Below are positions 41,544 through 48,010 of a stretch of 64,000 nucleotides of DNA, in pieces. The stretch comes from Candidatus Saccharimonadota bacterium. GTDB lineage: Bacteria; Patescibacteriota; Saccharimonadia; Saccharimonadales; Saccharimonadaceae. The position numbers and the translations under genes are program-made. The stretch's first letter is position 1. Every line of letters starts with the position of its first letter. Under the pieces are notes generated by a model. That model was not told where the DNA came from. It searched no databases and worked only from the letters and a program-made list of their open reading frames with translations. The stretch covers positions 1 to 64,000 of the forward strand of contig JAILQE010000002.1 in NCBI GenBank assembly GCA_024699125.1. Direction: 5' to 3'.

Positions 41544-41633
41544 GGAAGTGTGTCCGAGTGGTTTAAGGAGCACGCTTGGAAAGCGTGTGTGCGGGCAACC
41601 GTACCGGAGGTTCGAATCCTCTCGCTTCCGCCA
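41544..41633 (+). tRNA. tRNA-Ser (anticodon GGA)
   Basis: A type II tRNA of 90 nt. The acceptor stem is GGAAGTG/CGCTTCC, the anticodon stem CACGC/GCGTG encloses TTGGAAA (anticodon GGA at 41578-41580), the variable arm is long, and the T-loop is TTCGAAT. CCA is encoded at 41631-41633. It reads UCC/UCU codons. Confidence 0.95.
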
Positions 41634-41715
41634 GATTAATAAAAATAAAGTTCACTTTATTTTTATTAATCTGATGAAGCGACTAGGATAAATATCCTCT
41701 CGCTTCCCTAATAAT
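41633..41715 (+). repeat. tRNA-tail module 2: hairpin at CCA plus acceptor/T-arm minihelix copy
   Basis: A perfect 18-bp inverted repeat (41633-41650 with 41655-41672, loop TTCA) starts at the last A of CCA. It is followed by a 12-bp hairpin, GAAGCG-ACT-AGGATA-AA-TATCCT-CT-CGCTTC (41676-41706). Its 3' strand, ATCCTCTCGCTTCC (41694-41707), is identical over 14 bases to the tRNA 3' strand at 41616-41629. TAATAATTTTT follows. Confidence 0.8.
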
Positions 41716-45672: not shown

Positions 45673-45925
45673 AGACACCCGACAGGATATACATCCTTGT
45701 CGTCTGTATAAAGCAACAAAAAAACAAGACCTAAAGGTCTTATTTTTTTCTTGCTTTGGTACACCCGTTGGCGAAGCCCGGGTGGTACACCCGACAGGAT
45801 GGCGCCTTCGCTTTGCTTCGGCTAGACGTCGTCGCTAAAGCTCCTCCGTTCGAACCTACGGTTCGCATCCTGTTCGAGTACAACAACAAAAAACAAGACC
45901 CAAAGGTCTTCTTTTTTGTTGTTGT
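45673..45925 (-). repeat. tRNA-tail module 3: two rounds of hairpin plus tRNA-Arg copies
   Basis: Read on the minus strand after the tRNA. (a) A hairpin with 21-base arms (45905-45925 with 45880-45900, one mismatch) starts at the CCA A. (b) A T-arm copy is at 45849-45860 (12 of 12). (c) A copy of the tRNA 3' end including CCA is at 45783-45800 (18 of 18). (d) An acceptor-stem mimic CACCCG/CGGGTG followed by TACCA is at 45757-45784. (e) A second 22-base hairpin (45736-45757 with 45710-45731) again starts at that CCA. (f) A minihelix copy at 45673-45703 has 14 of 14 bases matching the tRNA (45675-45688). Confidence 0.8.
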
Positions 45926-46001
45926 GGTACACCCGACAGGATTCGAACCTACGACCTTTTGCTCCGCAAGCAAACGCTCTATCCAGCTGAGCTACGGGTG
46001 C
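45925..46001 (-). tRNA. tRNA-Arg (anticodon GCG)
   Basis: A 77-nt tRNA. The acceptor stem GCACCCG/CGGGTGT begins with a G-U pair, the anticodon stem TTTGC/GCAAA encloses TTGCGGA (anticodon GCG), and the T-loop is TTCGAAT. CCA is encoded. Most bacteria read CGN with ACG, edited to inosine by TadA; GCG reads CGC and CGU only. Confidence 0.93.
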
Positions 46002-47868: not shown

Positions 47869-48010
47869 AGCTAAGCAAAGCAAGAGCTTGCTCTTGGTTT
47901 GGTTAGCTTGAAGGATGCGATAAGGATAATTATCCTCTCGCTTCCGCAGATGTGAGCAGGATGAATATCCTCTCGCTTCACGCAATTAGAAGAGCGTGGG
48001 ATTCTAATTC
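47868..48010 (+). repeat. tRNA-tail module 4: hairpin at CCA plus two minihelix copies
   Basis: An inverted repeat of 20 bases with two mismatches (47868-47887 with 47890-47909) starts at the last A of CCA. Two copies of the tRNA 3' strand follow: ATCCTCTCGCTTCCGC at 47932-47947 (16 of 16) and ATCCTCTCGCTTC at 47967-47979 (13 of 13). Each is preceded by AGGAT and a 4-base loop, so AGGAT pairs with ATCCT. A last element, GGGATTCTAATTCCC (47998-48012), resembles a T-arm. Confidence 0.8.

Follow-up and report, generated by a model that had tools for sequence, protein, structure and literature searches.

What is the origin of the long tail behind the tRNA-Arg(gcg) gene of this Candidatus Saccharimonadota genome, in which hairpins alternate with copies of the tRNA's own 3' end, and is it a peculiarity of one gene or one example of something more general? 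The gene, whose CCA is encoded, lies at 45925-46001 on the minus strand of the window, i.e., the whole stretch of 64,000 nucleotides that was analysed, taken from a genome of 13 contigs and 765,546 bp. A sequence-only reading of this DNA had listed palindromes, copies matching at 12/12, 18/18 and 14/14 positions and an acceptor mimic ending in TACCA, all of which were found where it had placed them. It had proposed either a processed array of tRNA-like decoys or a stack of scars left by repeated insertions.

Anatomy of the tRNA tails in the window

On the minus strand, the tail of tRNA-Arg(gcg) begins at the base after CCA with H0, a near-perfect, A/T-flanked and terminator-like palindrome of 44 nt (45881-45924), whose arms (45880-45900/45905-45925) are 95% complementary. 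It is followed by the 5' arm of the P1 stem (AACAGGAT, 45867-45874), an inverted copy of tRNA nt 59-66 with 7/8 pairs, and by the P2 hairpin (45851-45866), which reads GAACC-GTA-GGTTC(G) with a C(GTA)G triloop and corresponds to the 5' strand of the T-stem and the T-loop copied inverted, then direct. The inverted T-arm copy reads ACAGGATGCGAACC, while the direct one (CGTAGGTTCGAA, 45849-45860) is identical to the tRNA at 12/12 positions. The T-loop of this half-tRNA copy carries a hairpin insert (45801-45850) that is a degenerate relative of the P3/P4 core described below. The 18-mer that is duplicated is ATCCTGTCGGGTGTACCA, i.e., nt 59-76 of tRNA-Arg (45925-45942); its copy, exact at 18/18 positions including CCA, occupies 45783-45800, and its first 8 nt form the 3' arm of P1. 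Further on, a small hairpin (CCCGGGCTTCGCCAACGGGTGTACCA, 45757-45782) terminates in an 11/11 copy of the acceptor strand with CCA, namely the mimic with the TACCA end (45757-45767), and a second H0-type palindrome (45711-45756), whose core is 93% like that of the first, starts again at a CCA. An older unit without core, AGGAT-loop-ATCCTGTCGGGTGT (45675-45695), contains a copy (45675-45688) that matches 14/14 from nt 59 and has lost its CCA. Folded as DNA, the tail scores z = -6.5 against dinucleotide shuffles, and positions 45793-45874 belong, as a truncated member, to a structured family found across the genus (covariance model R1, E 2.6e-6).

Tails of the same plan follow three tRNA-Ser genes on the plus strand of the window. 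That of tRNA-Ser(gga) (41634-41710) consists of an H0 palindrome (41632-41673) and the GGATAAATATCCTCTCGCTTCC copy from nt 59, that of tRNA-Ser(cga) (47869-47985) of H0 and two units, whose copies from nt 59 match at 16/18 and 13-15/18 positions, respectively, and that of tRNA-Ser(gct) (2038-2210) of a large palindrome and the ATCTCCCACC copy, again from nt 59.

Own-tRNA copies across the genome

All 46 tRNAs of the genome were then considered with their flanks. A match to the 3' end of the OWN tRNA at a score of at least 10 is present in 22 of the 46 tails, versus 3.1% of tail/foreign-tRNA pairs, and most of these tails have copies starting at nt 59, in the T-loop. There is no excess of own 3' end matches in the upstream flanks (2/46 tRNAs), or of copies of the tRNA 5' end downstream (2/46 tRNAs). 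The pattern is therefore genome-wide and concerns about half of the tRNAs, so that the plan noted at all four tRNA genes of the window does extend beyond it, but not to every gene.

A family of structured elements in the genus

When the genus was searched with a 23-nt piece from the tail of tRNA-Tyr, 34 of 174 genomes gave matches with no more than 3 mismatches (the reversed control gave 1 hit). These matches sit ~50 nt behind tRNA-Tyr, -Gln, -Ser, -Val, -Arg, and -Ile, and at each locus the P1 arms and the end copy fit that very tRNA. A covariance model built from 16 sequences in turn matches 139 of 170 genus genomes (92/108 among those of good quality), with a maximum of 20 copies in one genome; the 5 matches that it finds in the window's genome are all located in tRNA tails. 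A total of 82 matches were inspected, and 75 of these are behind a tRNA, with at least 21 kinds represented, usually 43-55 nt after CCA (at most about 420), and the element is always downstream of the tRNA and on its strand. Among the remaining 7, some are cut by a contig end, some stand behind another tail copy, and one, at tRNA-Ala (L034), begins inside the tRNA itself. Relatives thus carry a strongly conserved element, and not the random sequence that, like an absence of tails from the other tRNA genes, would have reduced the tail to a local duplication. Several units (L136, L143, L146, L154, L176) are at or near contig ends, and such repeats may therefore break assemblies and be undercounted.

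Outside the genus, genomes of a second genus of the family have 3-5 copies each, and other families of the order yielded weak matches, again at tRNAs with exact own copies (tRNA-Thr L259, tRNA-Pro L261). In other genera there are units that lack H0 and stand 7-12 nt behind CCA, with the exact 18-nt own copy kept (L259). Among 84,980 named GTDB genomes, exact core matches number 22, all in Candidatus Saccharibacteria, and many of the genomes concerned are labelled as gut MAGs, e.g., from goat, sheep, yak, or roe deer. Rfam 15 gave no match beyond the tRNAs themselves at gathering and relaxed thresholds, a scan of IMG/VR for the element core returned 0 matches, and no description was found in the open-access literature subset searched. 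These elements, folded DNA at the 3' ends of tRNA genes, form a real and strongly conserved family that appears to be undescribed so far.

The full element, of ~123 nt, comprises a palindromic hairpin after CCA and a four-way junction closed by two copies of tRNA nt 59-66, one inverted and one direct, and it ends with the direct copy of nt 59-76 including CCA. H0, directly after CCA, is absent in some genomes. P1 has the inverted copy of nt 59-66 as its 5' arm and the direct copy as its 3' arm, and P2 (GAACC-GNA-GGTTC) repeats, first inverted and then direct, the 5' strand of the own T-stem with the T-loop. P3, whose stem covaries, contains a conserved internal loop rich in purines (AGGAG/GACGCC) and a tandem G-A motif, and has an A/T-rich hairpin as its cap; P4, a variable hairpin, is followed by the nt 59-76 copy with CCA. 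On the basis of this anatomy, the unit can be described as a half-tRNA (T-arm and acceptor strand), preceded by its own inverted copy, whose T-loop is split by the P3/P4 cassette. Units can stand in tandem behind one tRNA.

Covariation and the nature of the folded strand

Covariation was examined in 83 distinct sequences. In the alignment fitted to the model, 95.5% of cells pair and changes on both sides are seen in 33 of 37 pairs, with 574 double-change cells; shuffling gives 156 such cells, and sliding the partner 51-98. As this alignment was fitted to the model, independent support for covariation comes from the first, unfitted one, in which 20 of 37 pairs display double changes.

Whether RNA or DNA is folded can be approached through mispairs, with tRNA stems as control, taken from 177 distinct tRNAs of the data set. 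These stems contain 145 G-U and 14 A-C cells, a ratio of about 10:1, as compared with 33:35 in P1, 5:6 in P3a, 16:8 in the P3 hairpin and 25:14 in H0; over units and H0 together G.U is barely commoner than A.C (about 86:65), in counts that, like those of the loops, are not phylogenetically independent. The element stems hence lack the pattern of a structured RNA, in which G-U is tolerated and A-C is not, and an apparent G-U excess in 16 sequences, due in part to a wrong pairing register in P3, was gone in the larger set with the tRNA control. As to the loops, 65 of 78 sense-strand P2 loops are C(GNA)G triloops, P2 being conserved by descent; P4 has 23 GNA loops and 0 of the complementary TNC kind, and whole units have 84 GNA loops versus 1 GNRA. 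No GNA triloops occur in hairpins of the window outside the tails. The d(GNA) motif is a stable DNA triloop, the counterpart of the RNA GNRA tetraloop (PMC5815330). The strand asymmetry of the loops designates the tRNA-sense strand as the folding strand, and the G-U/A-C ratio and the GNA triloops favour folded DNA over RNA.

Borders of the copies and specificity of the arms

Identity between the copies and their own tRNA is 93-99% over nt 59-66 and 76-88% over nt 67-76, falling to about 22-33% just outside, except at nt 58 (63%). The sharp borders at nt 59 and nt 76 look like those of an 18-bp target duplication. The P1 5' arm pairs at 7.3/8 positions with its own tRNA versus 5.3/8 with other isotypes, and P2 likewise follows the own T-stem. 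Units whose copies are intact show no stronger P1 pairing than units whose copies have decayed, a result that does not support a recency hypothesis for this pairing. The acceptor/CCA part (nt 67-76) has often decayed while the core and nt 59-66 stay intact, which suggests selection in place; this persistence of the structure and of nt 59-66 is the main hint of such selection and is unexplained by simple scars. Uninterrupted copies of nt 49-76 also occur, e.g., at tRNA-Thr L024. At one tRNA-Ser(cga) gene (L100, genome G043), the tRNA 3' end and the tail copy share an unusual sequence (18/18 alike), whereas the 5' arm of P1 fits tRNA-Ser in its usual form.

Inheritance and proposed movement between tRNA genes

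A tree of P3/P4 cores, of low resolution, requires 43 isotype changes versus 56.4 after shuffling (shuffle minimum 52), and 59 genome changes versus 58.6. Cores thus group by isotype and not by genome, so there is no sign of within-genome amplification. Cores at different isotypes can nonetheless be 84-92% identical, while the copies are exact or nearly so to each own tRNA; near-identical pairs are Val L141 and Glu L145, Gln L129 and Val L143, and Lys L140 and Tyr L133. Such pairs indicate that a core can change tRNA, its arms being refitted, and the element seems to insert and to be re-tailored at successive tRNA genes. A guide hypothesis, according to which it moves between tRNAs with similar nt 59-66, was unsupported (permutation share 0.41), as was array polarity, with the first copy better than later ones in 8 cases versus 6, and 9 ties.

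A search for empty sites with the flanks of 28 filled loci found homologous flanks, none of them directly behind an uninterrupted tRNA, and right flanks begin exactly at the copy's CCA. Two tRNA-Lys loci have, from the copy's CCA onwards, DNA with 88-96% identity to accessory DNA located elsewhere, and at one of the two this junction cuts an open reading frame. In addition, two tRNA-Val(tac) loci (L159 in genome G153, L209 in genome G010) are near identical in core, copy and flank and differ in tRNA allele, H0 and P1 5' arm. The tRNA-Lys junctions and this mosaic identify the tRNA end as a recombination boundary. At one tRNA-Lys gene (L174, genome G147), the CCA of the tail copy marks the precise point at which an ORF is cut; in other species this ORF adjoins a type I restriction locus. 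In another locus (L117, genome G129), tRNA-Gln and the unit are separated by a 1.1-kb insert that contains an 85-aa Zn-ribbon ORF, and a related ORF is found near a CCA boundary in another species (L211, genome G052).

Typical units have no ORF-bearing cargo. A PF00589 search yielded mostly one Xer-type tyrosine recombinase per genome, including G153, which has 20 units, and Y1 transposase (PF01797) matches are present in 8 of 170 genomes, mostly as fragments. One Y1 (IS200-like) transposase fragment is located at a contig end of the window's genome (G000:C7:80376-80450).

Comparison with known systems

Integron attC sites are imperfect inverted repeats that are recognised as folded ssDNA, contain variable hairpins and occur in arrays. 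The element, too, has inverted-repeat arms around hairpins, together with DNA-type loops, and may likewise be active as ssDNA, but is found without IntI, conserved core site, or cassette genes, and its arms copy the neighbouring tRNA. REP/RAYT and IS200/IS605 systems are also based on small palindromic extragenic DNA acting as ssDNA hairpins; in contrast to these, nearly all carriers of the element are without Y1 transposase, the target duplication is long, and the association with tRNAs is strict. Of the hallmarks of tRNA-integrating islands, the element has the direct repeat from T-loop to CCA (nt 59-76) but, with no ORF-bearing cargo in typical units, not the cargo with an integrase gene between the repeats. 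In Dehalococcoides, large tandem genomic islands with a serine recombinase gene are found at a single RNA gene, ssrA (PMC3146451). Insertion in the T-loop, a direct repeat of the RNA gene 3' end (there of 20 bp) and repeats in a row downstream are common to both, whereas the present element is of 60-180 bp, gene-less and found at most tRNA isotypes, its arms being inverted and target-specific and its folded core conserved. Integration of a mobile element at a tRNA gene is also known to produce partial tRNA copies (PMC9897764); those fragments are single scars of large elements, as opposed to the systematic, covarying and genus-wide element seen here. Lastly, casposon/Cas1-type insertion at tRNA 3' ends likewise involves a target duplication of fixed length, here 18 nt, but the terminal inverted repeats typical of casposons were not seen in the units.

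Possible origins of the tails

We propose that the tail consists of stacked units of a small insertion element that is non-coding and specifically targets the 3' ends of tRNA genes. Each unit, of about 60-180 bp and made up of H0, the inverted T-arm copy, P2 and the P3/P4 core, would insert directly behind CCA, leaving the tRNA intact and duplicating its last 18 bp (nt 59-76). We infer that the element may be mobile and that it would be recognised or propagated in the form of ssDNA, folded from the tRNA-sense strand, rather than as RNA; the pairing arms would be rewritten for each new tRNA, either through fold-back copying of the target during insertion or through rapid later correction. The footprint is best read as that of an insertion that duplicates 18 bp, and the chances that this is correct appear evenly balanced. 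Several results count against it: the search for empty sites gave no clean pair of an empty and a filled site, the recombinase and transposase searches pointed to no mobilising enzyme, cores group by isotype with no sign of amplification inside genomes, the core and nt 59-66 persist beside decayed nt 67-76, and P1 pairing is independent of whether the copy is intact. The wider picture, namely a gene-less mobile folded-ssDNA element that lives on tRNA genes, has its arms rewritten at each insertion and builds arrays behind many tRNAs, is put forward tentatively, as something that could well turn out otherwise. Of the two initial proposals, the scar stack agrees with the exact 18-nt duplication, the sharp borders, the tandem units and the core shared across tRNAs and species, whereas the array of processed RNA decoys is weakened by the lack of RNA-like G-U bias, the GNA triloops and the frequent decay of the acceptor/CCA part.

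That structure is the most strongly conserved feature of the element could, however, also reflect a functional RNA tail, co-transcribed with the tRNA and forming a tRNA-mimicking four-way junction that regulates maturation or acts as a decoy, its P1 strand pairing alternatively with nt 59-66 of the tRNA itself or with the downstream copy. The invariable position downstream and on the tRNA's strand would be expected of such an RNA, and the absence of a terminator between tRNA and unit in some genomes (L259, L254), the persistence of the core when the acceptor copy decays, the inheritance by isotype and the asymmetry of the loops in favour of the sense strand are consistent with it. Yet there is almost no G-U preference, the loops are GNA and not GNRA or UNCG, a terminator-like palindrome usually separates tRNA and unit, Rfam holds no relative and the acceptor/CCA part is dispensable; a functional RNA is unlikely, but a serious rival all the same.

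Near-equal G.U and A.C and stable DNA hairpin loops would equally suit a mutational by-product, with hairpins at highly transcribed tRNA ends causing fold-back template switching that yields functionless inverted and direct copies of T-arm and acceptor, and templated correction keeping the palindromes perfect. Two fold-back turns would produce the order sense - palindrome - antisense - sense, copies would stay slaved to the tRNA, and uninterrupted nt 49-76 copies such as that at tRNA-Thr L024 do exist; neither the conserved unpaired core (AGGAG..GACGCC) across species and isotypes nor the constant borders at nt 59 and 76 are explained, however, and this origin is about as unlikely as a functional RNA, though likewise a serious rival. 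Far less probable is that the tails are relics of tRNA-targeting genomic islands or phages, whose integrase duplicated the tRNA 3' end and whose loss left the att sites behind: an identity block from T-loop to CCA is indeed the classical att layout, and in the two tRNA-Lys loci accessory DNA abuts the copy precisely at its CCA, but the units are short (60-180 bp), structurally conserved and isotype-independent, the genomes contain almost no integrases, the core has no match in IMG/VR and the inverted arms are left unexplained. Tandem T-loop insertions with a 20-bp repeat at Dehalococcoides ssrA nevertheless offer a precedent for such relics (PMC3146451).

Whichever applies, the element is a large and highly structured feature of tRNA genes throughout a lineage of ultrasmall, host-dependent bacteria. 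If the insertion element that we propose is indeed mobile, it would represent a new kind of selfish DNA, with target recognition rewritten at each tRNA; if functional, it would add a new cis element to tRNA genes. In both cases, the origin, upkeep and spread of DNA hairpins without an obvious transposase become testable, and the element is relevant to the annotation of tRNA-end integration sites.

Variant tails

Some tails depart from the common plan. At tRNA-Ala(cgc) (L034), a P3 module directly after CCA replaces H0, with the tRNA's CCA being part of its stem. A further recurring module, GTGGAAGGACGGCAAGCGA..hairpin..TTAGAGCGCCGGCCTACCA, is found in the tails of tRNA-Ile(gat) (L009), tRNA-Ile(tat) (L016) and tRNA-Met (L019), and resembles acceptor and D-arm with a hairpin in the D-loop. 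The tRNA-His tail (L028) contains a shrunken tRNA-His, composed of anticodon arm (CTGTGTGGCAG), T-arm and acceptor, whose T-loop carries a hairpin.
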